In this document: piece by piece, positions 594 through 44,800 of the stretch
Layout of the letters: each line of letters begins with the position of its first letter
Position numbering within the stretch: position 1 is the stretch's first letter
Assembly (NCBI RefSeq): GCF_000264995.1
Contig: NW_006767440.1
Coordinates: forward strand, 828,788 to 892,787
DNA from: Punctularia strigosozonata HHB-11173 SS5
Taxonomy: Eukaryota > Basidiomycota > Agaricomycetes > Corticiales > Punctulariaceae
Direction of reading: 5' to 3'
Length of the DNA: 64,000 nucleotides
Translations under genes and position numbers: made by a program
The notes under the pieces: model-generated
Database searches by the model: none
What the model was told of the DNA's origin: nothing
The model's input: only the letters and a program-made list of their open reading frames with translations

Positions 594-912
594 GATGGAG
601 GTTATCGAGGATGAGGAGAAGGACGAAGTTGACGCGGCCACCAACGAGGTGAACGTGTTTTCTGACGACGACGATCACCACTGCGATCAGTAACTCTTGG
701 ATTGCCAGAGCCTGCTCGTTTGCTCACATGCTTTGAAAGGTCTCATAGGCTCATTGTTTGTCACGAACGACGACGAAGTGTGCTAGACAGAATCCACCGC
801 GCGCGGGCGAGCGTGCACTCAGCTTCGAAGAATTCAAGGATCTTGTCTCATCCTCGACGAACACAACTTGAAATTCAGGGTATTCACTCCACTGCCCCTC
901 GTAACCGCGACA
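594..912. promoter_or_regulatory. Divergent promoter region, CAP / ASH2-like
   Basis: 319 bp lie between the two start codons, and both genes are read outwards. No open frame of interest lies inside. A shared or overlapping promoter is inferred from the spacing only; no clear TATA box was recognised. Confidence 0.4.
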
Positions 913-3081
913 ATGCTGGCCACCGACACGCCGCCTCCCTTTGCTGGACTTACTCCCGCCCCGACGCCGCCGCCCCCAGGTTCTGCTCCTACAGGCCGCA
1001 AGCGCAAACAAGCGCCCGCGCAAGCAAGCACCAGCACGGCCTCTACTCCTCCCCCAGAGGGTAGCACCCCTGCGCCAACCACCACCATCATCTCCGACCG
1101 ATCCGACCTCTCCACACGTGAACGTCGCACCATCTCGCGCTACCCGATTTTCCTTCCAGCCCTGAACCAGCCCTTGGCATCCACGTCCACCCCGCGCTCG
1201 CGCTCCCCCTCCTCCAGCTCCGCTGACCCAGACGATGACCCGCTTTTCTATACCACCGACGGCATCCCTCACAACTCCCTTCGCTTCCGATACTACCCCG
1301 CCGGTGTCAACTCGCCCGGCGCCATCCTCACCTGCCGCACCATTGAATCCCTCCCCTGCTCCTACCGCATCTCATGGGAGGACCGCTCTCCCTTCCTCAA
1401 AGTCTCGCGCTCCGGCCTGCGCCTCCTCGGCGACAAAGGCTTCCGCTCCGCGCGGGGCAACGCGCCCGTTCGCGAGGGCCGCTGGTACTTTGAGGTCAAG
1501 ATCGAGAAGGGCGGTGGTGAACCCGGCGCGCGTGCAGAGGGCGCACACGTCCGCCTCGGCTGGAGCCGACGTGAGGCGCCGCTCAACGCGCCCGTCGGCG
1601 TCGACGGCTACTCGTACGCCTACCGTGACAAGACGGGCGAGAAGGTGACCCTCTCCCGCCCGCGCCCATATGGCGCGCCCTTCCGCTCCGGCGACACCGT
1701 CGGGATGTACATCGCGCTCCCGCCGCGGCGCACGCCTGGTACAGTCCGGACGCGCGGCGGGAAGGAGGTTCCTGACCCGCACGACCCGGCGAACATCCGC
1801 CGCAACCGCATCCCAATCGACTTCAAGGGCCAGGAGTACTTCGAGACGCTCGAGTACCAGGCGTCGAAAGAAATGATTTCGCTCATGGAGGCGCAATCCG
1901 CCAAGCCATCCGCCTCCGCGTCGCTCCCCTCCGCGCCATCCAAGAAGTCAGGCGCGACCGTCAAGAATATGTCGAACGCACGTGCTGCTGCTGCATCTGC
2001 TAAGAAAGCGCAGCCCGAGCTGCGCCCGCTCCCAACGCTCGGCCCGGACTCCTGCCTTGCCTTCTTCGTGAATGGCGTGTGTCAGGGCGTAGCGTTCCGC
2101 GACCTGTACGACTACTTACCGCTCCGTGCCCCGAACGACGCCGCCGCGGCACAGCGTCACAGGAAGAAGCGAGACGGCGGCACGCATCACGAGCACGCTC
2201 CCAATCCGTTCGACGACGGCACGCTTGGATACTACCCGACTCTGTCGCTGTTCAACGATGCCCGGGTGCGGTTGAACCCCGGTCCGGACTTTGAGTATCC
2301 TCCACCGGATGATGTCGATGCCGTGCTCGCCGAGCACGAGCGGAAACGACAAGGGGAGGGGGAGGACGACAAGTCGCAGCTGAAGATGGACGTGGACGCG
2401 GACATCAAGCCTTCCACGCAGCGCACCTGGCGCCCGCTCTGCGAGCGTTATCCCGAGTACATGGCCGAACAATGGGCCCTCGACGACGAAGAGGAAGCAC
2501 GCGCGCGCGCGGCGCTCGCCGACGACAACGTTGACGACCCGTCCCCGTCCCCCCTCCCCGCGCTCCCTGCCACGACGAAGCCTCCGTTGGACAACGAGGC
2601 GGAGGAGAAGCGCCAACAACGGCTCGCGAAGCGACGTGCGCAAGCTGCCGCGCGCAAAAAGGCCAAGCTCGCACAGCAAGCGCATCCGAAGGACGACTTG
2701 CTGAGCGTGCCAGGCGGCAGCCCGCTGAGGCAGTCCGCGACGCCCTACATGGATACCGACCCGGACGCAGCAGGGACGCCGGACACGGCTGGCGTGTACT
2801 ACTCGCCCGCCGTGACCCCCGATCCGGCGCTGATGCGGAGTAGGACGTACAGTCCCGACTTGGATCCGGACATGGACAGAGGCGCGAGCCTCAGGCCATA
2901 CTCACCCGCGGCGAGCGCGTCATCGGGCGTAGAGGTACGGGACGGCGTAGAGAGCGAGGACGACGAGCGTGATGGTCATACCGCGGGCGCCGAGCCAGAG
3001 TACATGGAGTTCGAAGAGGCGCCACCACCAATGGAGCCCACCAAGGAGGAGGAGGAGGAGGAGGAGGAGGATGACGAGTGA
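913..3081 (+). CDS. Ash2/Bre2-like COMPASS (H3K4 methyltransferase) subunit, SPRY domain
   Basis: Single-exon gene, 722 aa. Ash2/Bre2 proteins support Set1/MLL methyltransferase in COMPASS, which methylates histone H3 lysine 4 in the nucleus (family knowledge). The SPRY core is clear: REGRWYFEVKIEKGGG near residue 188, then VDGYSYAYRDKTGEKV, FRSGDTVGMYIALP, CLAFFVNGVCQGVAF near residue 376 and YYPTLSLFNDARVRLNPGP near residue 440. A ~100-residue insert rich in Ala/Ser/Lys splits the SPRY domain. The N-terminus (~80 aa) is Pro/Ser/Thr-rich and disordered. The C-terminus has a basic helix and ends in a run of acidic residues. No PHD or winged-helix domain is seen, as in yeast Bre2. The start at 913 is the first ATG of the frame. 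Confidence 0.85.
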   Translation: MLATDTPPPFAGLTPAPTPPPPGSAPTGRKRKQAPAQASTSTASTPPPEGSTPAPTTTIISDRSDLSTRERRTISRYPIFLPALNQPLASTSTPRSRSPSSSSADPDDDPLFYTTDGIPHNSLRFRYYPAGVNSPGAILTCRTIESLPCSYRISWEDRSPFLKVSRSGLRLLGDKGFRSARGNAPVREGRWYFEVKIEKGGGEPGARAEGAHVRLGWSRREAPLNAPVGVDGYSYAYRDKTGEKVTLSRPRPYGAPFRSGDTVGMYIALPPRRTPGTVRTRGGKEVPDPHDPANIRRNRIPIDFKGQEYFETLEYQASKEMISLMEAQSAKPSASASLPSAPSKKSGATVKNMSNARAAAASAKKAQPELRPLPTLGPDSCLAFFVNGVCQGVAFRDLYDYLPLRAPNDAAAAQRHRKKRDGGTHHEHAPNPFDDGTLGYYPTLSLFNDARVRLNPGPDFEYPPPDDVDAVLAEHERKRQGEGEDDKSQLKMDVDADIKPSTQRTWRPLCERYPEYMAEQWALDDEEEARARAALADDNVDDPSPSPLPALPATTKPPLDNEAEEKRQQRLAKRRAQAAARKKAKLAQQAHPKDDLLSVPGGSPLRQSATPYMDTDPDAAGTPDTAGVYYSPAVTPDPALMRSRTYSPDLDPDMDRGASLRPYSPAASASSGVEVRDGVESEDDERDGHTAGAEPEYMEFEEAPPPMEPTKEEEEEEEEDDE

Positions 3082-9178: not shown

Positions 9179-9788
9179 TCGTCGCCTATGGCACGCATAT
9201 GCACTACTGCTTGGACGCCTGGCCCGTTTGTCATATTTATCCACTTCTAGACTTTCTATCCGTGCGTCGCGCTGTCGTAGGACGCGCGTGCATGGACCCA
9301 TACTATTAGTCCATGTTTCGGACTTGTCATCTGTCTTATGTCCGGTGTACTGTATACGCGTAGGATTCTCTTAGTGGTAATGTATCCCTGAATCATGATC
9401 TACTTGTCACGCTCAGTTGATGTGTCTGAATCTGAGCAATATTCGAATGCGTAATGCCCTTGCAACGCCACGTGGTGATGAATGTCGCCGCGCGAGTTTA
9501 CACCTTGCGTGCTAACTGCTACCACATCCAAAGGACCAGGAGCCATCGCTCATATCTAACTTGCGCTCTACAGCTGTATTAGAGATTTTGTTTTGATTCT
9601 CGGCTTTTAGGATGTTCTTCGATATGTGAGCCTTCACTATTATGTGCCCACTAGGACGGACGCGTCTAGAATATTAATGCAAGCCTCTCAGTCCAGAGAC
9701 TCTTCATGGACAGCGTCCGCAATACGGACAATCTACCGACGACAGGAAATATAGGATAGATTGCGAGATCGAAGCTGCCGCCGACAAC
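9179..9788. other. Spacer between histone H1 and GH31 fragment
   Basis: No gene is seen. The right end lacks the upstream part expected of a GH31 gene, so a rearrangement junction may lie in the last ~100 bases. Confidence 0.4.
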
Positions 9789-10502
9789 ATGGCGAAATAC
9801 TTGGAGGTCAAACACCGCTTAATGCCCTACATATACAGCCTCGTGCGTGTCGTCGCTCCGCGTAGAGAGTGCCTGCTAATCCGATGTTGCTCATCATACC
9901 CAGGCTCTGAAAGCGCACGAGACTGGCGCGCCCGTTCAACGCGCGATGTTCATCGAGTTCTTCTCACGACGCACTACCTCGACAAACAGTACATGCTCGG
10001 TTCGTCGCTCCTAGTGGCGCCCGTCTTTGTCCCGGAGGGCGAAGAATCCGAGTATTACCTCCCCGCTGGCCGATGGACGTCCTTCTTCCATCCCGAACGC
10101 GTCGTCACCGGCCCGACGTGGGTCAAGGAGGTGGTGCCGCTGGACGACATCCCCGTCTGGGTTCGCCCCAACACGATCCTCTGCCTGGGCCCGGAGCACA
10201 CTGGTCGGCCGGACTACAAGCTGTCGGAGGGGCTGGAGGCCCGGTTGTATGAGCTCGAAGAAGGGGCCAAGGTCGAGGCCGTGATCCCGACGGGCGAGAC
10301 GGGCAAGGTTGCGGGCACAGTGCGTGCGGAGAGGAAAGGGGCGGAGATCAGGGTGAGCGTGGTCGACGGCGAGGTGGGGCTTGCGAGCATTTCACTGTTC
10401 GATGAACGCTTGCAGATCACGGGTGTCACTGCTGGCGGGAAGGTTCAAGGTAAGGCGGTGGAGGTGGAGAAGGGCGCAAAGGAGGTCATCTTCACAGTGT
10501 AA
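9789..10502 (+). pseudogene. GH31 glycosidase (alpha-xylosidase type), C-terminal fragment, frameshifted
   Basis: GH31 enzymes hydrolyse alpha-glycosides using two Asp residues in a TIM barrel. Here only the end of the barrel and the C-terminal beta domains remain: YLEVKHRLMPYIYS, an intron (9843-9903), ALKAHETGAPVQRAMFIEF, then YLDKQYMLGSSLLVAPVF, EYYLPAGRWTSFF and VRPNTILCLGPEH. The frame before and after about 9965 differs by one base: after the intron the first part reads into a stop, while the rest is open to 10502. Upstream sequence has no catalytic barrel. Codon use is strongly coding-like and the tail is intact, so truncation looks recent. I infer a 5'-truncated duplicate. An assembly error could explain the single-base shift but not the missing N-terminus. 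Confidence 0.75.
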
Positions 10503-10915
10503 CTCTCGAGACAGTGCAGAAACAAGCTCAGTAATGCGCGCTGGCCGGCCTGCGTGATCATTGATCAGTCTGCCCAAGCATGTCATCGCCGAGGTTGTTG
10601 ACTGGCAGGAGCCTCCGCCACCCATTATGCAAAGCTATTGCCTACAACAGCATGCCGACGTAGCCAGGATCGTTACAAACGTGATTTTCGAAGAGGTAAA
10701 TAGCCGAACCGACCAAGGAGTCATAGGAGTATATGTCACCGCTATCGCGCTCAAGAGCTCTGGGCCGATTCGCCTGCCGCCGCCCGCGAAGCGAGAGAGA
10801 TCTGAGCTCGGACACGCCGCCCCGTCATGGCCTCGCCACGTCCGCGCTAGGCCTCTCCAATACGCCTCCTCCTCGCTCGATATCGTCGCACCAAAAGCTG
10901 TCAAATCGCCTGCGC
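10503..10915. other. Spacer, no gene seen
   Basis: This holds the 3' flank of the GH31 fragment. No recognisable coding sequence was found. Confidence 0.4.
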
Positions 10916-11425
10916 TCGGACGCCTTTTCTCTATGGATAGAAGGAACTTGGATGTGCGACGACGTGGTCATTCTTTCCCCCTGAACACCTTAACCGTTCG
11001 CCTACCGCTGTACTTTGTTGTTGGATGAATGTTACGATGTCGCCTCCCAATCGACCACTCTATCCGTGGCGCATGTTACATAAGGGCACTGCGTCGACGA
11101 GAACGGGGAACCGATGCAAATATACACGGCATGTATACACGGCATGTACGGTACATGTCGCATCTTGGAAGATCTGGACATGACACGGCGTCAACTGAGT
11201 CGCGCGAACGGTTCCTGGAACGCCTTTCAGGCCGTCGACAATTTCCAAGATAATATGATAACGGTATGGATGACGTTTCGCGAGTGACGACCAGTTCATG
11301 CGCTTCTAGCCTGTGGACGCAAATCGTCGCCGTCAACTACCATTTTGACTGGTCAGGGAGGTCCATGCACGACGAAAGCGGATACGCAACTCGAAAACGA
11401 TCCCATCCCGATACCCCACGCTGGC
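10916..11425. repeat. Duplicated 3' flank of kinase-WD40 gene, copy 1
   Basis: This closely matches 17078-17571 in the same orientation (for example CGGACGCCTTTTCTCTATGG and GAACGGGGAACCGATGCAAA in both). It lies just downstream of the stop codon of the kinase-WD40 gene, so the duplicated block extends ~500 bp past each gene. Copy 1 has an extra short tandem repeat of ACGGCATGTATAC near 11130. Confidence 0.8.
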
Positions 11426-14075
11426 CTAATCGACCTCTCCATCCCATATTTTCACCAGACCGTCCGAACTCCCCGAGACGAGGTGCTTGCCATCGGGCGA
11501 GAACGCAACGGAGCTCACTCCAAAACTGCGACCGTGAGCTTGCCAAGGCCCTGCCACGGTCTGTCCCGTCTGCGCGTCCCATATCCGGATCGTGCGGTCG
11601 TCTGAACCGGAGACGATGTACTGGCCATCCGGCGAGAATGCCACGGAGGTGACCACGTATTTGTGCCCTTGCCCTTGCAATGGCCCCAGCACCGTCTGTC
11701 TTGTCTGAGCGTCCCAGATCCGGATCGTATTGTCTACGGAGCCCGAGACGATGCGCGCGCCATCGGGGGAATATGCGACTGACAAAACCCAGCGGTCGTG
11801 GCCTCGCAGCGGGTCCCCGACTGGCTGGCCTGTCTTGGCGTCCCAGAGTCGAATCGTGCTGTCGTCGGATCCAGAGGCGACGTTCTTCCCATCCGGCGAA
11901 ACTGCGACGCTGTTAACTTCGCCAGAGTGACCCCGTAAAGGCTCGCCGATGGCCTGTCCCGTGTGCGCGTCCCAGAGTCGGAGCGTGTAGTCGTATGAGC
12001 CCGAGACGATGCGGTCGCCGTCGGGTGAGAATGCGACACAGGAAACCCAATGTGTATGCCCTTCAAGCGGCTGTCCGACCTGCTGCCCCGTCTCCACGTC
12101 CCACAGTCGCACGGTCTCGTCACCTGAGGCCGAGGCAAGGCGCTTTCCATCGGGGGAAAACGACACCGAGCTGACGTCGGACGTGTGTCCCCGTAAAGGC
12201 TCGCGGATTTCCTTTCCAGTGTGCGCGTTCCAGATTCGGATGATTTTGTCCCCGGATCCCGAGGCGATTTGCGAGCCATCCGGAGAGAAGGAAACAGAAA
12301 ACACTTCGTTGGTATGGCCTCGCATCGTACGCTGCAGCGCTAGCCCTGATGATGGAGTCAATACAACGCGCACAACGCATCCAAATACCGCGTACCACCA
12401 CGCCTATTGAATTTCTGCGTCATCCTTGCCATCGCCTGCTGGATCCCCTGTCGCCTCTTGTCAACGTGAGGCCCAAGTTTGTCCATCACGCGTCCGGGAT
12501 ATTGCTTCAAGTTCATGTCTGGCAGGAACGAAGACATCGTGCCGAGGACCAATATCATATCAATCGCACGCGTCTCGCGCAAATTTGTTTCTGTTGATTC
12601 GCCTAGCATGGTTTCAAGAGACTCAGAAAGCGTGCTTGAACCAGCGTTACTGAATATAGCAGCCCTGCCCATCTCTGTGCGAGTTGAGTACAGAGCTTGT
12701 GGGAACATGACAACGTGGCCAACCTGTAGACAGCATCTCGTCGAGCACTTGACGATCCACCTCCGCAAGGCCTTCGTCCAGCAGCTTCGCAATCAACCGT
12801 CGAGCAGTTTTATACCATTGAAGCCGATTTAGTACTTCCAAAATCCGAGGTCGCTCAGACGGGCGTGCTACCCAACAGGAGCTGATGACATTGCTCCAGA
12901 TGAAATCGTCCAGGCCTAACGCCCGTGCATGAAGAGGACGCTCCGGTCGTTTGCCGTCGCGAACTTTGAGTAGGACCACGAGTTCGTGTGGGATATTGTA
13001 GAACGGGTGCCGCTCAGCAAAGATCTGTTCAGAGTATTTGGTTACATGGTTCAACTATGTCGGACTGATGGTTGAACTGTGCTCACCTCCCACGCGGTCA
13101 TCCCAAACGCATACACGTCAGACTTCCACGTCAACGTCTTGCCCTTCTCCTCGATATCGGACAACTCGGGGGCCATGTAACGGAACGAGCCCCAATTTGC
13201 TGACGACCCAGCAGTCGGTGCCAGAGTGGCGGTACCAAGTACCGTCGTGGCGAGACCAAAGTCACTGAGACGCGCATACCCAAGGCTGTCAACGAGGACA
13301 TTGCGCTGCGTCCCGATGACTGAATATTGATTGACCGTTCAGGAGGATACCCACTCACACTTTTGAGATCTCCGTGGACGAGACCGCTGGCATGCATGTA
13401 CTCCAAGCCACGAGCAACGTCCGTGATCTGACGTGGCCCCGTGAGGTTGACACGGTGCGCATCAAAACGCGACGCTCACAAGTTCAACGCGATTCGCACG
13501 CGGGTAGTTTTCAAGATACGACATGACATCGCCATGCTCCATCCATTCCGACACGATGCACGCTTGGTACGACGGATCGATGCCGATGAAGGGGACGATA
13601 TGTGGGTGATTCAGTCGTTTCCAGACGACAGCCTCCCTGCAAAACACCTGATCGTAGTCGCCGAGTTGACCGAGCGGACGGTTTGGTCTGGCATCGTAGG
13701 TGACGCACCTTCATGAACGATTTCCCATCCCTGACGTGCAGTCGCATGAACTTCAGAGCCACAGCTGTGCCGTTGTAGGTCCCCCGGTATACGTCGGCGA
13801 ATCCGCCAGCGCAGGGTGGATCGGTCCCAATCCTGGCCAGTCCCGACAACCTGTACCTGGTGGGTACGAGCCCGCTTTCCCCGCACAGTTCTCTCAGCGT
13901 GCGCAGGGACCTTCGAAACGTACCGTCCGTTTGACGTATCTGGTCGAGGCTCTAGAGAGCATCTTGAGTTCCTCGTTTCGCTCCTTTGCGGTCCATGCGA
14001 TGAACCACTCACGTTGTCTAACAAGTCTATCTTCGCCTGCAAGTCCACGGTATGAGGCGCTGAACTGTCCTCCAT
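11426..14075 (-). CDS. Protein kinase-WD40 propeller fusion protein, copy 1
   Basis: Eight exons: 14075-14013, 13951-13709, 13647-13480, 13427-13359, 13305-13087, 13024-12724, 12674-12396, 12345-11426; product 753 aa. The kinase domain has AGGFADVYRG (Gly-loop), VALKFMRLH (Lys), an HGD-type catalytic loop (VHGDLKS...NVLVD), LSDFGLA and YMAPEL, so it looks catalytically complete. A ~130-residue linker follows (LLDEGLAEVDRQVLDEML; LRETRAIDMILVLG). Seven WD40 repeats with GHT...SVAFSPDG...GSxDxTIRIWD patterns form one propeller at the C-terminus. The kinase frame and WD40 frame are joined by a 50-nt GT-AG intron (12395-12346); without it the kinase would end 30 bases later. The paralogue at 17.6 kb has the same structure, which supports the fusion. 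Function is unknown; a signalling or recognition role is inferred. Confidence 0.78.
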
Positions 14076-14924
14076 GTAACGTCGCTCTGGATGTAGGTGA
14101 GGAAGCGTTGGGGCAAAGGGTCGGCCACCGTTGCGCCTCGTTGATGTCCTCGATAGCGATTAGCGCCGAGAGGCCCGTCTGGGTTAAAGCGGCAAGCATG
14201 GCTGTTCGCACGTGTATCACCTTTGTACAATGCATGGCGGCAGTGCGGTAGGCTGTTGTGCGTGCATTGCCATTGGACCTAGTTATTTATACGGGAGAGC
14301 ATGCGCAGAAGCATGGCTCCTATCTTGCATTAACCGTTTTCGGCTGTAAGCATGAAGCTCGTATATACATTACTCTCGTCGTGAGCAGCTAGGCTAAGTC
14401 GCGAGGCTTGCCAGAGTTGACTTGAGACCTGCGTTGTGCCGCTAATAAGGAGTTAGCCTCGGACGGTCGATATGGCAGGATCGTCCGGGCTCCCGTGCAC
14501 CTCTCAACAAGTCAGTCCGACTCGCGGGCACGCATTTGGTGAGCGCCAGAAACTCAGGCGGTCAGCTCGAGCAGGCGCCAGGTACGATCATCCGCCGAGG
14601 TTTCGGGGACTCCGCGTTCCTCCCAGCAGATCCTGCACCAGCAACCTCTCGGGCCGTCATGAAGCGTAAGACGGTGTAGGATTCACGAGATATTCTAAGC
14701 TTTCAGATGCTAGCCCCGCTGACGACGAGCTCGCCGGTGGATCCTGTGTTTGTGGTTTCATGCGGGATGCGTGCTCAGAAACGTCGTGGGTCGTGCCGGA
14801 AGAGCCGAGAGTTGTCGAGAGTCGCAAGAGAGCTGAACTGAGCTGACAGAGGTGGCCCGCTCCAGGATTGGAGGTGACGTTTCGAGTTTGGAAGCTGACT
14901 CTGAGCTAAGAAGGAAAGGCAGCC
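14076..14924. other. 5' flank of kinase-WD40 copy 1, and spacer
   Basis: Bases 14076-14290 resemble the 5' flank of copy 2 (20188-20380), for example GCGTGCATTGCCAT against GCGTGCACTGCCAT. Beyond that nothing is recognised. Confidence 0.5.
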
Positions 14925-16290
14925 ATGTCGAAGTCGAAGTCGGCGCGAGAGGTCGGTGGGCAAACGCGACCGACGATCCCGACGATCATCGTCGCGTCTC
15001 GCGGAAGTCCGCTCAGGTCCGCTCTCGCACTCTCACCGCGCCGGCTCAGGTACCTCCACTTCCGCGCACACAACGCAAACCCTGAACCGATATCACCGTC
15101 AAGTCCCGGTGAAGCGCGAGCGATTTCCCCCCCCTCACGTATAGGCGCCCGCTCATGGCCTTCGCCGCTCTGCCCGCAATACGCCTCTCTGACTCCTTGC
15201 AACCCATGCGCCAGCCTCAAGCGACGTACTTGCATCAAAATCTGTCAAATACCCGGCGGCGGCACCGCATCGCCTTTGTTACCTGCAAACCCAAAGGCGC
15301 ACGATCCAACGGCGCACAAGTTCTATCACGTCGGGCTACGAGGCGATCTCATTCGGTATGTCCCATGCATGTCGCGCCCCCTCGCCACATCGTCATCGGC
15401 GCGTTCTGTTCTCCCTCTTTTTTCCACAGGTATGGTATATGGGTCTGATGACGGCCTGAATATCGTGGTCGACATCTACCGGAGCTCTTGCCTTGACGTC
15501 TCCGCATCGGCGGACGCTACATCGGCGGCCTGCGTGCGTCTCATCACCTTCTGTTCGTACATACGCCGGGAGTGAGTGACGAACCAATCTCGATGCTTTG
15601 GACGCCATCTCACATCTGTGCCAGCGATCCAATGCGCGGCGTTCCTCGACAAAGACAGCGAAAGGCAGGGCGGATACATAATAGACCGGGCGGACAACGA
15701 CGCCTCTGCAAAAATCGCTGATTGTGAGTCGTTGTTGTATGCACGGTGCTGGTACAGACATCTAACCTCAGCATGCAGCTGCGCTTGACGTAACGCGATT
15801 CGATTCTGGGCTCGACACTTCCATGTTGAAGGATGTCCACATCGTCGGATCCTCCGCGCTCCCCTTGCCGCCATCGCGTGAACTATCAAAGCTCGAGGCC
15901 GCGTTTCGGGCATTCATTGCTTCGAGCTTTCGAGAGATGTCACGTCGGGCGGCTTGTGTTTGAAGGGCATTACCCGTGCGCTCCTACCCCTTTTCCCATC
16001 CTCCAGATGCTGATGCCTGTTGTTCTGCAGACACGGCGCACAAGGCAACCAGTAGCGTCGTCGCGCGAATGTACCGGCCGCCGCATTGACTTGACGACCA
16101 CTCGCCATGATCACAATATCGCCCGGAAATCTCGGAAGTGAATTCGTTCGCGTTTACGACCGCTCGAGCGCCATCTGGCTCATCTCCGTGTTAGCCTCCG
16201 ACGTCCGGCGTATCTCGACGACGACGCAGCTAGCGTTCGGTAACGCCAATTGCTCATGCAATCCAGGCTATGGTAAGTTCTCGCCCTCTC
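14925..16290 (+). CDS. Unresolved multi-exon gene candidate
   Basis: Several open segments on the plus strand are bounded by plausible splice sites. ATG at 14925 opens MSKSKSAREVGGQTRP. Near 15430 an exon reads MVYGSDDGLNIVVDIYRSS. Near 15620-15720 IQCAAFLDKDSERQGGYI...ASAKIAD joins in phase to SALDVTRFDSGLDTSMLKDV (acceptor near 15780), which ends near 15960. I could not make one continuous model from the ATG onwards, and I do not recognise the family; MVYGSDDG resembles a beta-propeller or CNH-type strand only weakly. It may be a decaying gene caught between the two kinase-WD40 copies. Confidence 0.25.
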
Positions 16291-17077
16291 TGCGTGTCCG
16301 AGGTCTGCGCCGACGCTCAACTCTTGCTTCCAGCTCTGCTACCTCAGGCTTCGCGAACCGGAGACACGTCCGCGAATACGCGACTGCCGTGGCCCGCTTG
16401 CTTTGCTGAGCTTTGAGAGGTCTCCTCTCCCATCGACCTTCCCTCTGCACCTTCGGATGTTCTCTTGCGCCGGCGATTGGACGGACAAAGACCTACATCA
16501 TCGACTATATGCACCCACGCAAGTCTCAATCGCAGTCCCAAAGACGCGCGAGGGGCTAAGCCCTTCTTGTAATGGATGGACTGATGCTCGTACCGATCCT
16601 CTACGATGCTGATGGCCTTGCCAGCTCTTCGCCCATCCTCGATCCATCCTCCCGTGCGATCGAGCATGACGGGTGTCCATGCCGTCCGTCGATTCCAACT
16701 GGCGATGACCGTTCAAATACATTCGCCCATGAAGATGCGCTCACGACCTCTTCTCCGACGTTCTTCCGGTCACTGGGGAATTCGACAGGTCAAGGCTACG
16801 GGACCAGGCTCAGTACGCGGCGCCTTCCGGCTCTTCCGACGTTCTGCTGAGGTGTATCAATCTGCATTTCTCCCTCGCGCGCCGCCCCGGACCGTCGACC
16901 GGTGGCACCTGCTCGGCCGCTTGTCGTCCCCAAGCCATGCACGCACCGGGCTCCGCGCACTGGGTGAACTTCGATCGGAAGATGGTGACGGAACGGAGGA
17001 TGACAATCGCGATGTAGCGTAGCATCCGAAATGCGCCAGTGCTACTGGCACTGCATTCAGTACATCACTACACTCCG
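16291..17077. other. Spacer, nothing recognised
   Basis: Frames on both strands are short and compositionally unremarkable. Confidence 0.35.
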
Positions 17078-17571
17078 TCGGACGCCTTTTCTCTATGGAC
17101 AGTAGGAACTTGGATGTGCGACGACGTGGAGATACTTTGCTCCCTTTGCACCTCGATCGTTCGCCCGCCGTTGTACTTCGTTGACGCGTGAATATTACAC
17201 TGTCACCTCCGGCTCAACCGCTCTATTCATGGCGTGTGATATACAAGGGTACTGCGTCGACGAGAACGGGGAACCGATGCAAATATACACGGCATGTACG
17301 GTACGTGTCGCATCTTGGAAGGTCTGGATATGACACGGCGTCCACCGAGTCGCGCGAACGGCCACTGGAATGCCTTTCAGGCCGACGACAATTTCCAAGA
17401 TAATATGACAACGGTATGGATGACGTATCGTGGGTGACGACCAGTTCATGCACTTAGCCGGTGGACGCGAATCGACACCATCAACTACCATTGACTCGTC
17501 AGTGAGGTCCATGCACGACGAAAGCGGATACGCACCTCGAAACCGATCCCATCCCGACACCCCACGCTGGC
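17078..17571. repeat. Duplicated 3' flank of kinase-WD40 gene, copy 2
   Basis: This is the counterpart of 10916-11425, directly repeated. It marks the downstream limit of the duplicated block at the shared string TCGGACGCCTTTTCTCTATG. Confidence 0.8.
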
Positions 17572-20187
17572 CTAATCGACCTCTCCATCCCATATTTTCA
17601 CCATGTTGTCCCAACCCCCCGAGACGACGCGCTTGCCATCGGGCGAGAACACAACGGAGCTCACCCCAAAGCCGCCACCGTGAGCTTTCCAAGGCCCCGC
17701 CACAGTCTGTCCCGTCTGTGCGTCCCATATCCGGATCCTGCCGTCTTCGGAGCCGGAGACGATGTACTGGCCATCCGGCGAGCATGCCACGGAGATGACG
17801 CCTTTTTCGTGCCCATGCAATGGCCACAACACCGTCTGTCTTGTCTGAGCGTCCCAGATCCGGATCGTCATGTCGTAGGAGCCCGAGACGATGCGCGCGC
17901 CATCGAGGGAATATGCAACTGAATAAACGTAGCTATCGTGGCCTCGCAGCGTGTCCCCGACTGGCTGGCCTGTCTCGGCGTCCCAGAGTCGAATCGTGGT
18001 GTCGTAGGATCCAGAGGCGATGTGCTTCCCATCCGGTGAAAATGCGACGCTCAGAACCCATGCAGAGTGACCCCGTAAAGGCTCGCTGATGGCCTGTCCC
18101 GTCTGCGCGTCCCAGAGTCGGAGCATCCTGTCGCGTGAGCACGAGACGATGCGGTTGCCGTCGGGTGAGAATGCGACACAGGAAACCCAGTTCGTATGCC
18201 CTTCGAGCGGCTGCCCGATCTGCTGCCCTGTCTCCACGTCCCACAGTCGGACGGTTCTGTCAACCGAGCCCGAGGCAAGACACTTTCCGTTTGGGGAAAA
18301 TGCGACAGAGGTGACGTAGTTCGTGTGCCCCATCAACGGCCTCAGGATTTCCTTTCCGGTCTCCGCTTTCCAAATTCGGATGGTGTCGTCCCCGGAGCCC
18401 GAGGCGATTTGCGAGCCATCCGGAGAGAAGGAAACAGAATACACGGCGAGGGTATGGCCTTGCATGGTGTGTTGCTGCGCTGGCTCTGCTGGAACGATCG
18501 TCGGAAGCCAGAATATGAACAACGCATCAAATTGACCGCGTACCACCGGTCTGCATAATCCACCCCGTATCTTGGCGAATCCCAAATTGCCTGTGGTCAA
18601 CATGTTTCTCCATGATGCGCGTAGGATATAGCTTCTTGCCCGGCAGCAACGACGAATATAGGCCGAGAACCATGATTATATCGGGCGTATGTGTCTCGCG
18701 CAGGTTCGAGTCCGTTAGTTCTTTTAGCATGATATCGAGAGACTCAAAAAGCCTTCTTGCATCAGCAACATTGCGCATAGCACGTCCGCCTATTTCTATG
18801 GTGGTTCAGTGCAGAGCTCGTAGGAAGCCATAGCGTCACGACTGACCTGCAAACAGCAGCTGATCGAGCTTTTGCCGATCGGCTTCCGAGAGACCTTCGT
18901 GCAGCAGCTTCGTGATCACCCCTCGTGCAGCTTTGTGATACCCGAGGCACCCGAGTACTTCCGACATTTGCGGTCGCTCAGATGGGTCTGCTGCCCAGCA
19001 CGAGCTAACGGCGATCCTCCAGACGAAATCGTCCAGACCTAGCTCTTTTGTGTGCGGGGGGCGCGACGGTCGTCTGCCGTCAAGAACTTCACGAAGGACC
19101 ACGAATATGCTTGTGATATCGTGGAATGGTTGTCTCCCATCGAAGATCTGTGAACAGCGTCAGTTAACATGAATCGGTCACGTCGGAATGCACCTCACCT
19201 CCCAGGTGGTCATTCCAAACGCGTACACGTCGGATTTCAAAGTCAAGATCTTGTTATTCGTCGTGCTGTCGTTCAACTCGGGAGCCATGTAACGGAAGGA
19301 GCCCCAGTTTGCGGACGATCCGGCGGTCGCTGCCAAAGAGGCGGTACCAAGGACCGTCGTGGAAAGACCAAAGTCGCCAAGACGCGCATGCCCGGATCTG
19401 TCCACCAAGACGTTGCGCTGGGTTCCGATGTTCATTGATCGACGGTAGAGGTGGCTGTCAACTCACGCCTTTGAGATCCCCGTGCACGATACCGCTCGCG
19501 TGCATGTACTCCAAGCCAGATGCGATGCCCGTGATCTGAGCGTGGCGTTGTAAGGTTGGCGCAGTACGTCGCAACGCATGATGCTCACCAGTTCAACGCG
19601 ATCGGCACGCGGGTGCTGTTTGAGATACGACATGACATCGCCGTGGTCCATCCATTCGGAGACGATGCATGCTTGATACCCTGGCGCAACGCCGAGGAAG
19701 GGAACGACGTTCGGATGATCCAGTCGTTTCCAGACGATCGCCTCTTTGCAGAACACCTGAATACCAGGACGACGACGTGAATGAAGGTCCTCAATGTCTG
19801 TGGTGAAGGTAAAGATCGCACCTTCATATACGTTTCCCGATCTCCCGCGTGCAGTCGAATCACTTTCATGGCAACGGGTGCACCGTCGTGAGTTCCCCGG
19901 AATACATCTGCGAATCCACCAGCGCTATGCGGATGTTCGTTGGCTTTCACGAGTCCTGATAACGTGTAGCTCGTGGGTAAGAGTTTGTGTTCCCCGCATA
20001 GCTTGCTGAGCGTGCGCAGGGACGTCCGAAAGGTATCGTCATCTCGAGGGGTCGAGCCGAGAGCCTGAATCACAAGCCGTATGTCACCTCATACGGTGTT
20101 GCGTTTCTGAAGATAGCTACTCACCCGATCTAACGTGTCGATCTCCTCCTGCAAAGCCGTGTTGCGAGAGGTCGGATTATCAGCCAT
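17572..20187 (-). CDS. Protein kinase-WD40 propeller fusion protein, copy 2
   Basis: Eight exons: 20187-20125, 20064-19822, 19756-19589, 19535-19467, 19417-19199, 19147-18847, 18795-18544, 18488-17572; product 743 aa. Kinase features by residue: Gly-loop SAGGFADVFRG (68-78), Lys88 in VAMKVIR, Glu107 in FCKEA, HGDLKG with Asp178, DFG at 196-198 and APE at 226-228. Linker ~300-445 (LSEADRQKLDQLLFA; NLRETHTPDIIMVLG). Seven WD40 repeats run from ~448 to the end, each of the form GHxxxVxSVAFSPDGxxIxSGSxDxTIRIWDAxTG. The kinase and WD40 parts are joined by a 55-nt intron (18543-18489) that keeps the frame. Every exon boundary is shared with copy 1. Product location and substrates are unknown. An HGD instead of HRD motif is common in TKL-type fungal kinases and does not by itself mean loss of activity. 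Confidence 0.8.
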
Positions 20188-20888
20188 GAAAGTTGTTTTG
20201 AGCGCGGACGAAGGGAGTGCGGAGGCGAACGCTCGGCAAGGAATCTACCTCTATGAGATACAGGCGATAGCTTATACAGCAATAGGCGCCAAAGGAGGGG
20301 AGCGTCTGGGTGATAGCTGTGTGTCCGTGTATCACCTGGGTGGGCTATTTCGCGTGCACTGCCATCCACGGAGCTAATCATAGAGGATGACACGCATAGA
20401 AGCCTCGCGTCTACTTGCTATTCAGCTGTATACTGTCGCGTGAAGCAATGAGTCGGTGCGTACCTCATGGTCATAGGAGCTTTGAATTGGGGGTCTCGCA
20501 GCAAGCAAATCGTGATGCAATTGCAGAGGATCGGAGACGTTTGACGATGTTGTATCGTAGGCGAGCGATAAGCTACTCGCTCTGGTGTCTCAGATAGCGC
20601 CAGGATGTGCAGAGCGCATATATCTCACCTTACGTTTTGGATAGAGGAATGCCAGACTATGTATAGACAGCGTTACTTATCGTCAGCAGCTCCAGTATTT
20701 GCGACCTCTTGAGTACGTTGGCATAACAGGAGTCGGACGGCCAAGACTGGTGCCGTACTCGTGGTATGATCGAGCAAGATAGGTATATCTGACGAAGATC
20801 GTATAGAGAAAGGCGAGGAAGATTGAGGAGAGAGTTTACGAACTGAGCACGACTTTGAGCTCGTCGAGCTCGCACCTCGGATGGCAAG
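20188..20888. other. 5' flank of kinase-WD40 copy 2, and spacer
   Basis: 20188-20380 is related to the 5' flank of copy 1. From there to the F-box relic no gene is seen. Confidence 0.45.
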
Positions 20889-21850
20889 CCGCACCGTACC
20901 GCACTTGCCGGGGCGATGCGTCTTGCACTCGGAGCGCTCTTGGACCTGTCGGCTCCGCAGCCGTCACACCTGGTCATAAATCAGAGGCATTTCGATTGGA
21001 CAACGCTGCAGTTTCGTTCGCTGGTTGGCTGCTTGGAAAACCTTGAGTTGACCGCACTTCCTTGGGACTCCATTCCAACAGGAGAACAGCTACGCATTGC
21101 GCTTGCAACTGCATCGATGCCAGCACTGCGAGTTCTCCGACTCGAAATACCCAGCAGGGCGACATACCATCAGTATCCGCCGTCAGGAAAACCCCGCGAA
21201 CCCCTGTTACTTGATCGATTGACCGACTTGACCATCACAGAACTTGGGTCGGTCGTTTGCAGCCTCCTCTCCCAGTTCCGAGTGCGCTCTGATGCCAGTG
21301 TGTTTATCCGTCCTTACGATTCGGACCAAGAAAACGACTTGATCACGTTGACGACGTTCCTCGAAGATCATGACGCGTTCAGAGCGGACGGATCCGTAGT
21401 TCAGCGCTTAGTGTTCGGCGGCACTAGCCTCAACTCCTACGTTCTCGGAGTCCACCTGGACGCCACGCACGACACTCGCCGCCAGCTGCGCCCATTGCTA
21501 CACCTGGAAATCCCACCGGGATTCGTTCCTCGTATCCTCCAACGATTGCAACTCTGCCAGCTCCAGGTCATGGAGATGCGGAACTTCTTCGAGTCGAATG
21601 CGTCTGTCGTTGTGTCCATCTTCGAGCACTGCATGGTCGCGACCGAAGTGCGATTCGTGGGCACAACGACCCATCGTATCATGATACTCTGCTTGCCACG
21701 GAACCGGGCCTACTCCCGTCATTGCGTCGCGTACATATCGACAATATGGGGTCTCCCCAGAACCTTCGCCTTCCTCTGGAGGCCCTGTTGAAAAAAGCGG
21801 GAAGCGACGTTCAACGAACCGCTGCGATTCCTTATCTCGAAGAAATCCCG
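20889..21850 (+). pseudogene. F-box/LRR-like gene relic (no F-box, frameshifted)
   Basis: A long open frame (20916-21791) matches the leucine-rich part of the F-box gene at 54 kb: DLSAPQPSHLVINQRHFDW against ALSAPNLCHLKIRNTSLDW, and LENLELTALPWDSIPTGEQL against LTSLELEFIPAGSFPSGAQM. No F-box or coiled coil precedes it; upstream is closed by stops. Near 21680 the homologous frame shifts by one base: DTLLATEPGLLPSLRRVHID continues in another frame to ~21850. I call it an N-terminally truncated, frameshifted paralogue. Confidence 0.6.
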
Positions 21851-25056: not shown

Positions 25057-28000
25057 ATGTCTTCCGGACCCGCAGACGCATCGTTGCAGCCGATACGCCA
25101 AACGATTTCTCGCTTGCAGAGCCCGATCCCCGACCTCGACACGCTGCTCGCCCTCCTCACCGCGCCGCTCGACGCCCTGCGCCTCCTCCCGCCTCAGTTC
25201 CTCGCACACAACACCCAACCGCTTCCCCCAAACGCGTTCTCTATCTCGCGCCACCTACCTCCCCTACAACGCGCCCTCATCCTGCATGTTGTACCGACCT
25301 GGCATGCCGACCTGCGTGACGCCGGCGCGCTCCCGCTTCTCGATCAATACTTCTGTCCAGACGCCTTCTCCTCCGCCTCCACCACGGCAGGAGAAGTAGC
25401 GCTGCACGCATATCCGAGCATTATCTCCACCCCTCTCAACGAATACACCCTACGCGTCCTCTCCAAGCTCTCCAAAGCCTACCCCATCGATAGGCTGCAC
25501 ACCGTCATCTTCAACTCCCCAACCGCCACCGCAGATGCTCACGGCCGCGCCTCCGCTGCGAAAACATGGGAAGATTGCGTCCGCGACGTCTGCGCCGTAC
25601 CCGCTAAAGCCACCAACGCCGCCGGCCCCGGATCGCCCCTCGCCCTCCCCGCCGAACTCGCCCAAGACGTGTACTTCAACCACCTAAGCCTCCGCACCGA
25701 GTCGCTCGTCGCCGATTTATCCGCCAAAAACGATCGTGACGAGGGTACGTCCCGACCTCTCCCCGTATATGCCGCCCGCAGATATCCTAACGACCTGGCG
25801 CAGAACAGACGCTCTGGCCTCGCTCGCCTACCTCCTCGCCAAGCTCGTCAACCTCGGCCTCTTTCCGGCCACCCCGCCCATCGCCCGCTCCTCGCCCTCC
25901 TTCTGGACCGCCGTCCTCCCCACCGTCCGTCGCCGCCTCCCCTCTCACCCCCGCTACGCGTCCTACTGGCCCGCCGTCCTCGGCGCGCTCTCCTCCCCCA
26001 TCTCCCTCCGCGCCATCATCAGCTCGCTTTTGGCGCACCTCCCCCGCCTCTCCGAGGCCGAGGCCGAGGCCCTGGACGCGTCGCCGCCCACAAGGACAAA
26101 AATCCGACGTTCGGCCGTGCTGCTCTACCGCTTGCTCGGCCTCGATATCGACGCAGAAGGTTCCGAAGATGTTTGGACCGCCGCGCGAGAGGTGATGCTC
26201 CTCCCCCGCGGCGGGGCACAGTGGACCGAAGCTGACGCGCGTGTTTTCGTCTGCGCGGCGGCCGAGTCGAAGACCACTGACGGTACGGTCCCATCCGCCA
26301 CATATTGCGCTTCCGTCAGACCTTAAACACGTACGCTGACCCGCAGCTCTCGAATCGCTCCTCGCCGCGACGATCGACCTCTGGTCCACCCCGGAGCACG
26401 TCACGCACTCCCTCCTTTCCCGTCATCGATGTACGTACATGCTCCCTCCCTCTACGCTCGCTACGAACCTGACATGGGACATGGTCTATCACCAGACGTC
26501 ACCTCCCTCGCGCTCCTGGCGCTGACCGCACTGCCCCGCTCTTCGTCCCTCGTCCCGTCCCTCGCCCACTCCCAACCCCTCATCCATGCCGTCGGGCTCT
26601 ACATCGGTCACCTCGACAAAGGCGTGCGCCGGTGCGGCATGCTCCTCGCCGAGACCCTCGCTCAGAGGGCGGGCAAGGCGCTCGACTTCGGGGCAGACGT
26701 ATGGTCAGGCGACGAATGGGCCGCGCGCATGCGTGCGCTGACGAGCGCTCGCGACGTCGACGCGCCTCTATCCAACGAGGCGGATGACTCGGACGAAGAG
26801 AGCGGGGCGGAGCCCGTCCGAAACAACGCTCCAGCGTCCTCGGCCCACCCGCCCACGAGCCGCAAGATCACCGTCGCCGCATCTGGCTACGACTCGGACG
26901 ACTCGCTCACGGGCTACGCCTCCCCGCCCTCCTCTCGCTCCCCATCGCCCACGCCGTCCGAGCTCGAGGAGCTCGCACGCGAGCCGACCCTCGCCGTCGG
27001 TGCGCCGAAGGTCTCCCGGCCGGTGTACCTCCTCCAACTCGCCGAGCTCGTGCGGCCCACGTCGACGCTCAAGGAGCCCGAGCCACGGGAGGCGGCGGAG
27101 AGGATACGCGTCGCGCTCGACGTCGGCGAGGAGCTCGTGCGGCGCAAGGCCGCGTATGGGTCCGAGCTCGGTGAGCGCCCCCCCTCCCCCCTCTACCTTC
27201 TTCGCATGCATGCTGACAGAGGCTCACGACGTGATGTGCAGAGGAGAACGCGGTCAACCTCGTGCACGGGTTCATAGCGCTGAACGACAACTACGAGACA
27301 CCTGGGTTCGACGAGAAGCGCCAGGCGGTGCTGACAGCCCTGGTCGCCTGCTGCCCGCGCAAGTCCGCTCCGTGAGTTCCTCCCGCCCCTCCTCCTCCCG
27401 CCCCTTCCCCTCCGTCTGACCCCCACTCGGGATCGCCAGGACGATCATCGAGCAGTTCTTCAGCAACCAGTACTCGACCGACCAGCGCTTCGTGATGCTC
27501 GCCGCGCTCGCGCTCGGCGCGCGAGAGCTCGCGGGGCTGCCCGTGCCGGCCTCCGCGCGCCTCGTGCCGAAAGACCCGGACCGCCTCTCTTTCCCGAGCA
27601 GAAAGCTCCCGCCCGCGCTGCATCAGCAGCTCCTCACGGCGGCGGACGAGGTGGCCAGCGCCGACCCGGTGCGACGCCTCGTGCAGGACATCAGCCGGCA
27701 GGCGATCGACAGGACGCGGGACGAGACCGCCGGGCACGGCGACGACAAGGCGGCCGCGCCGATCGTGCGCGAGCGGAGGCTGCGCGTGCGTCAGCCCGCG
27801 GGGGCGATGATACAGGAGGTCCCGGGAACCGGGACGGGGTCGGGGCCGGGCCCGGGGATGGGGATGGGAGGCAGTCTGGCGCAGCGCCACGCCGCGCTGC
27901 GTCCGCCCGCTCCGCGGCCGCGCACGACGTTCGCCGACGTCGGCGTCGAGTACTTCATCTACCCGCTCGTCACGCGCTTCTGGACCTTCCTCCGCGACGA

Positions 28001-41896: not shown

Positions 41897-44800
41897 ATGT
41901 CGACCACCCTCCCTCTTTTTTGGCATTTATCTTCGGCGTCCCAGGAGGAGCGTATCGATGCCTCTGTCAAACTGGTATCGGCACTCGAGCATTTTCAGAC
42001 GCAATTCGCGCCGAAGGTAGCCAAACAGGCGGAGGAGAGTGAAGGAAGCGAGGAGGATGAAGGCGAGGATGAAGACGAAGATTCCGAGGAACAAACGGCT
42101 GGAAAAGGGACGGGGCAGAAGGAGAGCGACAGGCTGGATGAGATGAATGCGCAGGATGTTTCGTACTCCATACGGAGATTGACCAGAGGTCTTGCAAGTC
42201 CGGTGGAAAGTAGCCGACTGGGATTTGCCGTTGCATTAACGGAGGTAAATCGACCGTGCTTACTGACACGGAAAACTTCTACTAAACCGAAACTCAGCTA
42301 TTGTCAAGGATAAACACCGTGACTTGCTCTCAGATCCTCGCGTTAGTCGTGGATTCGTCGAAAATTCAGGGATCAATGACTGGCCAAGAAGAACGCGACA
42401 TGCTCTTTGCCCGCCTTTTCGGTATCACGTCCATCATTCAATCTGGCCTCCTTGTACGACAGGAGCCCCTGCCATCATCATCGACTCCCGCTTCGACCCT
42501 AGAAGGTTACACCGGTGCTCTCGCTGAACTCGTTGCCTTGGGCGAGAAGAAAAGCTGGTTGAAGGAGGTGGCCTGGTGGACCATCGACCTCGCCATTGAC
42601 GCGCTACATTCGTCTACCGTTTCCTGGAAGGATGACGCTTGGCAGGAAACGAAGGAGACACTGTATTTGCAAAACAAGACCTGGACGCCTGAGAAGGTCG
42701 GCGTGACCTTGAAGCTGCAGGAGTATCAGCCGGATTGGGACTGGAAGGCGCTCCTCCAGCCTCCGTTTAAGAATGCTGATGTGTTGAGCATTCCCAACTT
42801 CGCGACGTTGGGCAAGGTCTTGAAGGTTTGCGTCGTCACATTACGTTGTCACGAGAGCTCAAGCAATGCCCTGCTAGGAGTCATACGAAATTGATGATGA
42901 CGACTCCGTCCACAAAGTTAACAATCCTGGATCCTGGAAGCCGCAGGTGCACTGGGTTTGGGACGCGATATTCGCGGAGCTTCTCCCCGCTTCTGGCTCC
43001 GCAAAATCTTCTTTCCCTGAGTTCTTCCGCATCGTCGTAGACGGTAAGTATTCGATTCCGACGTACCTTCAAGGCTGCTATAATCGATGGTTGCTCATCC
43101 TCTGAAATCTTAGAAGCGTTATTCTCTGCTGCGTCATCTCCCGAGCGCAAGCTTTGGGGCTTCCAAATATTTCAAAAAGCGCTTCCTCGGGTAGACGCGG
43201 ATAATGTCCCGTTCCTGTTCACGAAGAATTTCATGCGCTGCTGGATTAACCATCTTAGCAAGCAGGATCGGTACCTGCACAAAGCAGCACGTCAAGTGGT
43301 GCGCTTGCATCCTCCCATGTAGCCTATTTTGATTATCTCATACATATCCTTCGTCATATCCTGCAGGCGACCGACATCCATACCGTCGCGCGCTCCAACC
43401 CAAAGATCGGTTTCGCTCTCATACTCCAGCTCACGGGTGTCCATGGCAACAAGCAGTTCGATAAGCTCACCCGCACCAAGACTGTCGAGAGTATATTAAC
43501 AAGCATGGACGCTGAAGGCATCGACAACTATATTACTAATCTACTGGAGCAGTTCAACGCGTCGACTGCGGGCGAAGAGTTTGTTTACTCCATAGCTCAT
43601 CGAGCAGTATACTAATAACGACTCACCCCCGACAGATCCGATTTTCAGGCTTTGAATGGGCGACGCTCGTGGGTGATCGACCAGCTCGCTGCGCTCATCC
43701 GTAACGGTGCCATACCCAAAACCGACTCCTGGGTGGTGCGGATCTTAAACTGGCTAATCGTCCATGGCCTGTTCGTTCTAAAGAAGAATTCCGAGAAGAG
43801 TCCCATCGACGCGGTTAGCACAGGATCTCGTTGCTTGTCCAATGCTCTCGCCCTAAAGCCGTTGATTGCTCCCCAGTTACACACCGTTCCGAAACCCGTA
43901 CTTTCCGACGAACTACGCAAGAGTTGTCGCGAACGATTGCTAAGCTGTCTCGGTGATCTCGCTAACCGCACCATCGCTGTCTCCGGTGTCAAGAGGACTG
44001 GCGTAGCTTCCGATGGCGAGCTGTGGGTGTCCAAGGTCGTCGCGATGGTTAACGCACTGAAGCAGGACACGAAACACGCGAAGAGCCTTAAAGACGTTGA
44101 CGAGGCAGACAATGCCGTGTTTGAGAAAGCCTTGACGATCGCCGCAAAGCTGCGCGACGTCGGCGGAGACGATGGCTCGGCGTCGAGTGCGCAGGGTGCC
44201 CAGTTGCTCATTGAAGCTCTGTACCTTCGTGACCTTTGCTCAGAAGAGAACGAGGAAGTTGACACGGACCCGCTTGAGGTAGATTGCATCGCGTTCTACG
44301 CCGCCAGAACAGGTACTGATACGTGCTCCAGGCTTGCGCTGACGCCGCCCAGCGCATGTTCCTCACTTCGTCAAAGAAAGCAAAGAAGAAAAAGAGCCGG
44401 AAATCTTCCGGCGGCGACGAACCTGACGTTGTTCCGGATGTACCAGAACCAATTGATATTCTCGTCGATGCGATCATCGGTCTGCTTGAGAACTCGTCCT
44501 CGTTCATGCGGACGATTGCGAATCAGTCGTTTGCTTTGCTTTCGGATGCAGCAACGGATAGTACGATCGATTTGATCCTAGCGGTGAGCCTCGTTGACTG
44601 CAGTCCGCACCCATGATCTTCATACTTCCGTTTAGCAACTGGAGCGCCGGGATCCGAACGCCGAAGAGGATGAGGATGAGGAACTGGATGAAGAAGCCGA
44701 CGACGTAGAACAGGGCGACGACGACGACGACGACGATGACGACGACGAGGGCAGCGAAAGCAGCGAGAACGACAAAGCAGAGGAGGATGAAGAGAGCATG

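Follow-up and report, generated by a model that had tools for sequence, protein, structure and literature searches.

Kinase–WD40 genes of Punctularia strigosozonata belong to a family with two effector classes and a shared, diversifying propeller cassette

Two neighbouring genes in a 64,000-nucleotide (nt) stretch of the basidiomycete Punctularia strigosozonata HHB-11173 SS5 (the window; contig C8, positions 828,788–892,787, of a genome of 33.57 Mb in 32 contigs) each specify a protein kinase domain, a linker module and a WD40 propeller. The two genes, referred to here as copies A and B, probably encode receptor-like kinases of the cytosol. These would be part of a combinatorial recognition family whose members use a diversifying propeller cassette as sensor, have either of two enzymes as output and lack a nucleotide-binding switch. 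Both are among 31 family loci with two effector classes, which came to light when the genome was searched for the kinase and the linker and 31 fetched stretches were put through spliced alignment. Work on fungal allorecognition and immunity has largely concerned receptors that contain a nucleotide-binding switch. If the proposed role is correct, the same kind of diversifying sensor functions without that switch and feeds a kinase, which would amount to a phosphorylation-based recognition pathway comparable to those of plant receptor kinases and animal RIP kinases.

Copies A and B lie on the minus strand and each consist of eight exons with intron phases 0,0,0,0,0,1,1. The Pfam scan returned PK_Tyr_Ser-Thr in both (2.8e-46 and 6.7e-43) together with seven WD40 stretches in each, which agrees with the gene models and bears out the preliminary description of two copies that splice, with the same phases, from a complete kinase domain through a linker into seven WD40 repeats. 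The product of copy B is 743 amino acids long, and its exon 8 begins at about residue 440. For the last intron of copy A, the spliced alignment favoured a second in-frame acceptor six bases further on (56 nt intron). The features are as follows.

20187–20125, 20064–19822, 19756–19589, 19535–19467, 19417–19199, 19147–18847, 18795–18544 and 18488–17572, minus strand: exons 1–8 of copy B
18847–20187, minus strand: copy B exons 1–6, a short N-terminal segment and a complete kinase domain (HGD for HRD)
18544–18795, minus strand: copy B exon 7, linker module, phase 1 on either side
18489–18543, minus strand: copy B last intron, 55 nt, phase 1, GT..AG
17572–18488, minus strand: copy B exon 8, WD40 propeller of seven blades, hypervariable at positions 11, 12, 14, 30 and 32 of repeats 1–6
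17072–17571, minus strand: copy B 3' flank, the same apparently homogenised cassette as the copy A flank
14075–14013, 13951–13709, 13647–13480, 13427–13359, 13305–13087, 13024–12724, 12674–12396 and 12345–11426, minus strand: exons 1–8 of copy A
12724–14075, minus strand: copy A exons 1–6, N-terminal segment and kinase domain
12396–12674, minus strand: copy A exon 7, linker module
12346–12395, minus strand: copy A last intron, 50 nt, phase 1, GT..AG (56 nt with the alternative acceptor, the intron then ending at 12340)
11426–12345, minus strand: copy A exon 8, WD40 propeller of seven repeats
10926–11425, minus strand: copy A 3' flank, part of the apparently homogenised cassette; 91% then 84% against the copy B flank (250 nt each)
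9770–20947, no strand assigned: block with both genes, of which 9770–14925 and 15967–20947 are 91–93% identical, in inverted orientation, to the L009/L010 region (C8, about 787–799 kb)

The inverted copy of the A–B pair lies about 40 kb from the pair in the window; the identity given covers the fetched stretches, the middle of that copy being outside the comparison. The synonymous divergence (dS) of the kinase is 0.080 for A and L009 and 0.093 for B and L010, consistent with one duplication of the whole pair.

The description of a tandem kinase–WD40 pair was right in that the pair is real, but the pair is not isolated: with 31 family loci in the genome, A and B are two of about 30 genes with two exchangeable effectors. 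At least 18 loci combine the kinase with WD40 repeats (A, B, L009, L010, L015, L017, L021–L025, L027, L030–L033, L036 and L039), and 11 of the 18 have the same phase string as A and B. Four others (L015, L021, L025 and L036) are without the linker exon or its intron, and L017, L023 and L027 deviate in other ways. At least 13 further loci carry a related propeller and no kinase. Twelve of these 13 show motifs of a Tle1-like hydrolase (GFSRGAY in 12/12, all six searched motifs in 10), in agreement with PF09994 matches at the same loci; the thirteenth, L014, is truncated by a contig end. These counts are lower bounds, as 150 of the 856 WD40 candidates were scored and the kinase count covers the matches listed. 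L016 has a family kinase, its WD40 part not being found there; L012 and L026 are not family members, and WD40 and PF09994 matches near 1606 kb on C8 are outside the counts. The 262 kb contig C23 carries 13 members, seven of the kinase and six of the hydrolase type, which are interleaved.

The kinase domains of A and B carry the P-loop, VAxK, HGDLK..N, DFG and APE motifs. All 18 kinase–WD40 loci retain the VAxK lysine and HGD, and 17 retain DFG; no APE motif was found in L023 or L024, and L031 and L033 have PPE in its place. HGD in place of HRD presumably marks the family kinases as non-RD. Among the best 60 of 2432 sequence matches to solved structures, an EGFR entry, a Src–Abl ancestor and ABL1 lead, with RIPK2, EPHA8 and RIPK1 close behind; we take these nearest solved relatives to belong to the tyrosine kinase/tyrosine kinase-like (TK/TKL) group. 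In the comparison with cell-death kinases of the RIPK/MLKL type, which pair a RIP-like kinase with an oligomerising or four-helix partner domain, RIPK2 and RIPK1 were among the best matches, alongside other kinases. A model of the HeLo domain gave no match in the genome, and its controls gave none either. No membrane segment was found in the two proteins, the highest 19-residue mean hydropathy being 1.16 and 1.05. The kinases of close pairs (A–L009, B–L010, L031–L033 and L036–L039) are under purifying selection, with ratios of nonsynonymous divergence (dN) to dS of 0.08–0.44; the values for A–L009 are dN 0.035 and dS 0.080 (dN/dS 0.44), and for B–L010 dN 0.022 and dS 0.093 (dN/dS 0.24). Some members are damaged: in L024, DFG has become DFL and DLK has become DLH; the WD40 part of L017 contains a stop; and L023 apparently misses a piece of kinase exon 5, its model needing a 40-nt gap in a kinase exon.

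The propeller is the most distinctive part of these proteins. AlphaFold2 folds exon 8 of copy B into a propeller with a mean predicted local distance difference test score (pLDDT) of 96, and the best PDB match of the model is the PkwA WD40 domain (5YZV, residues 441–742 of PkwA), at 43% identity, with designed seven-bladed propellers also near (PMC6113231). Variability was counted in 22 of the 29 loci with a WD40 frame. Seven were excluded as divergent or oddly modelled (L011, L014, L015, L018, L021, L022 and L025), and L017 (no usable WD40 frame) and L042 (fetched later) fall outside the counts. Repeats 1–6 were compared slot by slot, repeat 7 being set aside for its differing length. The register, which we take to be G8 H9 ... 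V13 ... D31 ... W37 D38, was set before counting and then checked by circular shifts. Mean entropy at positions 30, 14, 12, 11 and 32 is 2.2–2.8 bits, and the next position reaches 1.24. Identity between proteins at the same slot is 0.17 at these five positions against 0.85 in the framework. Parsimony counted 557 replacement and 84 silent changes at the five positions, compared with 421 and 440 at the other 38 (odds ratio 6.9).

The same positions are known from fungal allorecognition. For HET-D/E, positions 10, 11, 12, 14, 30, 32 and 39 have been used, on the basis of high dN/dS (PMC12222747). All five of the most variable family positions fall within that set of seven (chance by random draw, 2.2e-5), and the set ranks first of the 43 circular registers in all 22 members, in the 13 of the kinase type and in the nine of the hydrolase type. 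In the close pairs, dN at the seven positions exceeds dS in the rest of the propeller: 0.744 against 0.147 for A–L009, and 0.686 against 0.142 for B–L010.

The propeller exon and the 3' flank beyond it do not share the history of the kinase. Between A and B, kinase dS is 0.72 while dS in the rest of the propeller is 0.17, and nucleotide identity lies at 0.60–0.81 across the kinase exons, 0.67 for the linker exon and 0.64 for the last intron, rising to 0.86 for the WD40 exon and 0.91 over the first 250 nt of the 3' flank. The flank is common to both enzyme classes, with 95% identity between the kinase locus L032 and the hydrolase locus L029, and 87% between copy A and L029. A tree of the propeller framework rejects a single kinase clade (approximately unbiased test, p 0.0039), with 11 of 19 inner branches left open; in the kinase tree, 8 of 10 inner branches are well supported. 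In six members listed, the nearest paralogue shifts from slot to slot. Judged by these sequence comparisons, the propeller exon together with the 3' flank is homogenised between genes, across both enzyme classes.

The linker exon lies between these two parts. The modelled repeat spans 83 positions, and a single copy was found in 12 of the 18 kinase loci. Among the hydrolase-type loci scanned it was found four times in L011, L013, L014, L020, L028 and L034 (with a further fragment in L013), three times in L029, and once in L018 and L019; the linker scan did not find it in L035, L037 or L038. A known family was rejected as the identity of the linker after the first member gave no Pfam match. Over 21 members, Pfam returned four weak single-member matches (E 0.019–0.087), three of which were to GCN1, adaptin and STAG, presumably all HEAT/ARM-like proteins.

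From the variation pattern and the analogy to allorecognition receptors, we infer that the seven-bladed C-terminal propeller may be the sensor, diversifying at five positions per repeat with the frame kept, and that gene conversion may carry sensors from one gene to another as a cassette comprising the WD40 exon and the 3' flank. The linker exon, bounded by phase-1 introns, would join the sensor to an interchangeable N-terminal enzyme, either the kinase or the Tle1-like hydrolase. In the kinase proteins the linker would serve as the coupling piece and the kinase as the output: binding of a ligand, perhaps a non-self or altered-self protein, would bring the kinase domains together or release them, and their activity would lead to a defence or incompatibility response. 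For the wider proposal, of a switch-less immune-receptor system of about 30 genes in one fungus, the chances seem evenly balanced. Such a system would have one repertoire and two outputs and no nucleotide-binding domain, with a hypervariable cassette of exon and 3' flank passing by gene conversion between two unrelated enzymes, a non-RD TK/TKL-type kinase and a Tle1-like hydrolase, to which a multipliable linker exon would join it. The family offers a direct test of how sensor cassettes are traded between effectors.

Several results weigh against the receptor interpretation. Single-position tests on the slot trees were weak: four of the five positions gave p values of 0.0012–0.045 and position 12 gave 0.17, and none in the 22-member set remains significant once corrected for 43 positions. 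The HET-D/E positions 10 and 39 show no significant excess, and gene conversion violates the one-tree assumption of the per-position tests. The pattern is stronger in the family but is not unique to it, as three propellers of the NACHT–WD40 type in the same genome (L002, L040 and L041) have an identity of 0.52 at six positions and 0.84 in the frame, compared with 0.24 and 0.88 in the family at the same six positions. The data come from one genome, so that the diversification is seen between paralogues and not between individuals. The linker exon is not clearly constrained (dN 0.118 and dS 0.085 for L031–L033; 0.043 and 0.025 for L030–L031), and its fold model is helical with low confidence (mean pLDDT 63).

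The reading of each locus as one fused gene depends on the last intron. It had been claimed that both copies keep a usable last intron and that the kinase frame closes within tens of bases if this intron stays. Both points held: the introns are 12395–12346 (50 nt) and 18543–18489 (55 nt), both GT..AG, and retention leads to a stop after 35 nt in copy A and 14 nt in copy B. A phase-1 intron of 47–70 nt precedes the WD40 exon in 26 of the 30 loci with a modelled last exon, and its retention would truncate the WD40 part in 25 of these 26, the frame of L018 staying open. The remaining four loci (L011, L013, L035 and L038) have models with a long last intron. On the gene models, the last-intron observation is sound, general to the family and more than chance. 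Separate kinase and WD40 genes, arranged head to tail and misread as a fusion, or a mainly kinase-only product from retention of the last intron, are nevertheless conceivable, given that the kinase frame does close when the intron is kept, that the resulting peptide is similar in A, L009 and L023, and that a methionine stands directly ahead of the first WD40 repeat in A and B. We regard this as very improbable: the phase-1 intron recurs at the junction in 26 of 30 modelled loci, including genes with the different effector; in those 26 loci fewer than 71 nt separate the WD40 exon from the exon before it, too few for a separate terminator and promoter; and the retained peptide of copy B differs (GTRSI). 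With the intron kept, the similar short tails of the A-type genes would read GTRYLDALCALY in A, L009 and L023, GTSRCLDVLRALY in L030 (one residue changed in L031) and GTRCLDALRALY in L033; copy B is without such a tail. A kinase-only splice form of the A-type genes is possible from these frames.

Two other explanations accept the fusion. The propeller could dock the kinase on differing host substrates or scaffolds, and diversification of the family would then have served the regulation of many targets in the fungus. In favour, docking is a common role of WD40 propellers and the catalytic motifs of the kinases are mostly kept, but a related hypervariable propeller also serves the Tle1-like hydrolase, the variable positions coincide with those of an allorecognition receptor, and stable docking is not expected to favour such a rate of change, so that we consider a role in substrate choice rather unlikely. 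It is more improbable that the family expanded neutrally by duplication and gene conversion, leaving most copies with little function, even though its members cluster, the A–B pair has an inverted duplicate, and L017, L024 and L023 are damaged. The kinase dN/dS of 0.08–0.44 in four close pairs does not look neutral, and the replacement excess is limited to few positions while the frame is kept.

Elsewhere in the window, a long open frame with a SPRY domain (787–3078, plus strand) was observed; SPRY has been discussed as a sensor domain in some fungal NOD-like receptors (NLRs) (PMC12258605). The C-terminal part of a GH31 glycoside hydrolase gene (9678–10499, plus strand) lies at the edge of the duplicated block. 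Frames on the plus strand also match Tel2 (26327–27274, barely above the cut-off) and DNA polymerase phi (44636–46099). An Rfam scan of the window gave no match at gathering scores.

The preliminary description likened the two genes to the HET-E/HNWD group, with a kinase in place of NACHT. The analogy in recognition stands, as five of the seven HET-D/E positions recur, but the kinase sits at the place of the HET effector and NACHT was not found. The idea of the kinase as a stand-in for NACHT was rejected on account of the hydrolase sister genes. NACHT (PF05729) has 23 matches in the genome. C23 and C9 have none, and on C8 NACHT is confined to 1428 kb, a long way from the window; it is also not among the 25 listed of the 57 (B) and 56 (A) Pfam families, and no genome-wide search was made for NB-ARC. 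The kinase occupies residues 69–320, with about 65 residues ahead of it; no search aimed at an N-terminal HET domain was made. Like HET-D, HET-E and HET-R, the HNWD-type NLRs of Podospora anserina, the family proteins have a C-terminal WD40 sensor behind an N-terminal effector, and the two groups share variable positions 11, 12, 14, 30 and 32 and exchange between paralogues (PMC12222747, PMC12881547). They differ in that the family is without a match to NACHT near its loci, has a kinase in the HET place and a linker between, and in A and B has seven blades where functional HNWD alleles usually have 11 repeats. Repeats within one family protein have a mean identity of 0.57 and a highest of 0.74 (slots 1–6, 22 members), below the cut-off of >85% for highly alike repeats in PMC4986451. 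Membership of HNWD is not right, failing on several tested features.

Vps15 and LRRK2 are eukaryotic examples of a kinase combined with WD40 repeats, and neither is found in the top 60 of 2432 matches of the family kinase to solved structures. Such associations are reported as far rarer in eukaryotes (PMC5587647), fusions of kinase and propeller having been described from actinobacteria, cyanobacteria and planctomycetes (PMC7159879, PMC5587647). PkwA of Thermomonospora curvata shares with A and B a kinase and one seven-bladed WD40 propeller in one protein. Among the best-matching solved structures the family kinase resembles metazoan TK/TKL kinases, a possible difference from the PkwA-type bacterial proteins, and the accessible text on bacterial kinase–WD40 proteins yielded no counterpart to the hypervariability, to the linker exon or to the sister genes with a hydrolase. 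Fusions of kinase and WD40 are known as such, mostly from bacteria; an arrangement with two effectors and a shared cassette was not found in print. Nor did the accessible literature, with subscription papers mostly outside reach, describe a fungal family of kinase–WD40 or Tle1-like hydrolase–WD40 proteins.

Annotation is poor for the N-terminal parts of NLRs in basidiomycetes (PMC9815663). Fungal NLRs with a PKinase resemble the family in having a kinase among their N-terminal effectors and C-terminal repeats (PMC4986451 table 1, PMC10197012), but they carry NACHT or NB-ARC, none of which was found at the family loci; a PKinase occurs rarely in Sordariales, mostly at the C-terminus (PMC12258605). 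Proteases that control fungal gasdermins, with WD40, TPR or ANK repeats, have a protease as effector where the family has a kinase or a Tle1-like hydrolase; like the family, they consist of an enzyme fused directly to superstructure-forming repeats, partly outside the NLR plan (PMC12881547, PMC10197012).

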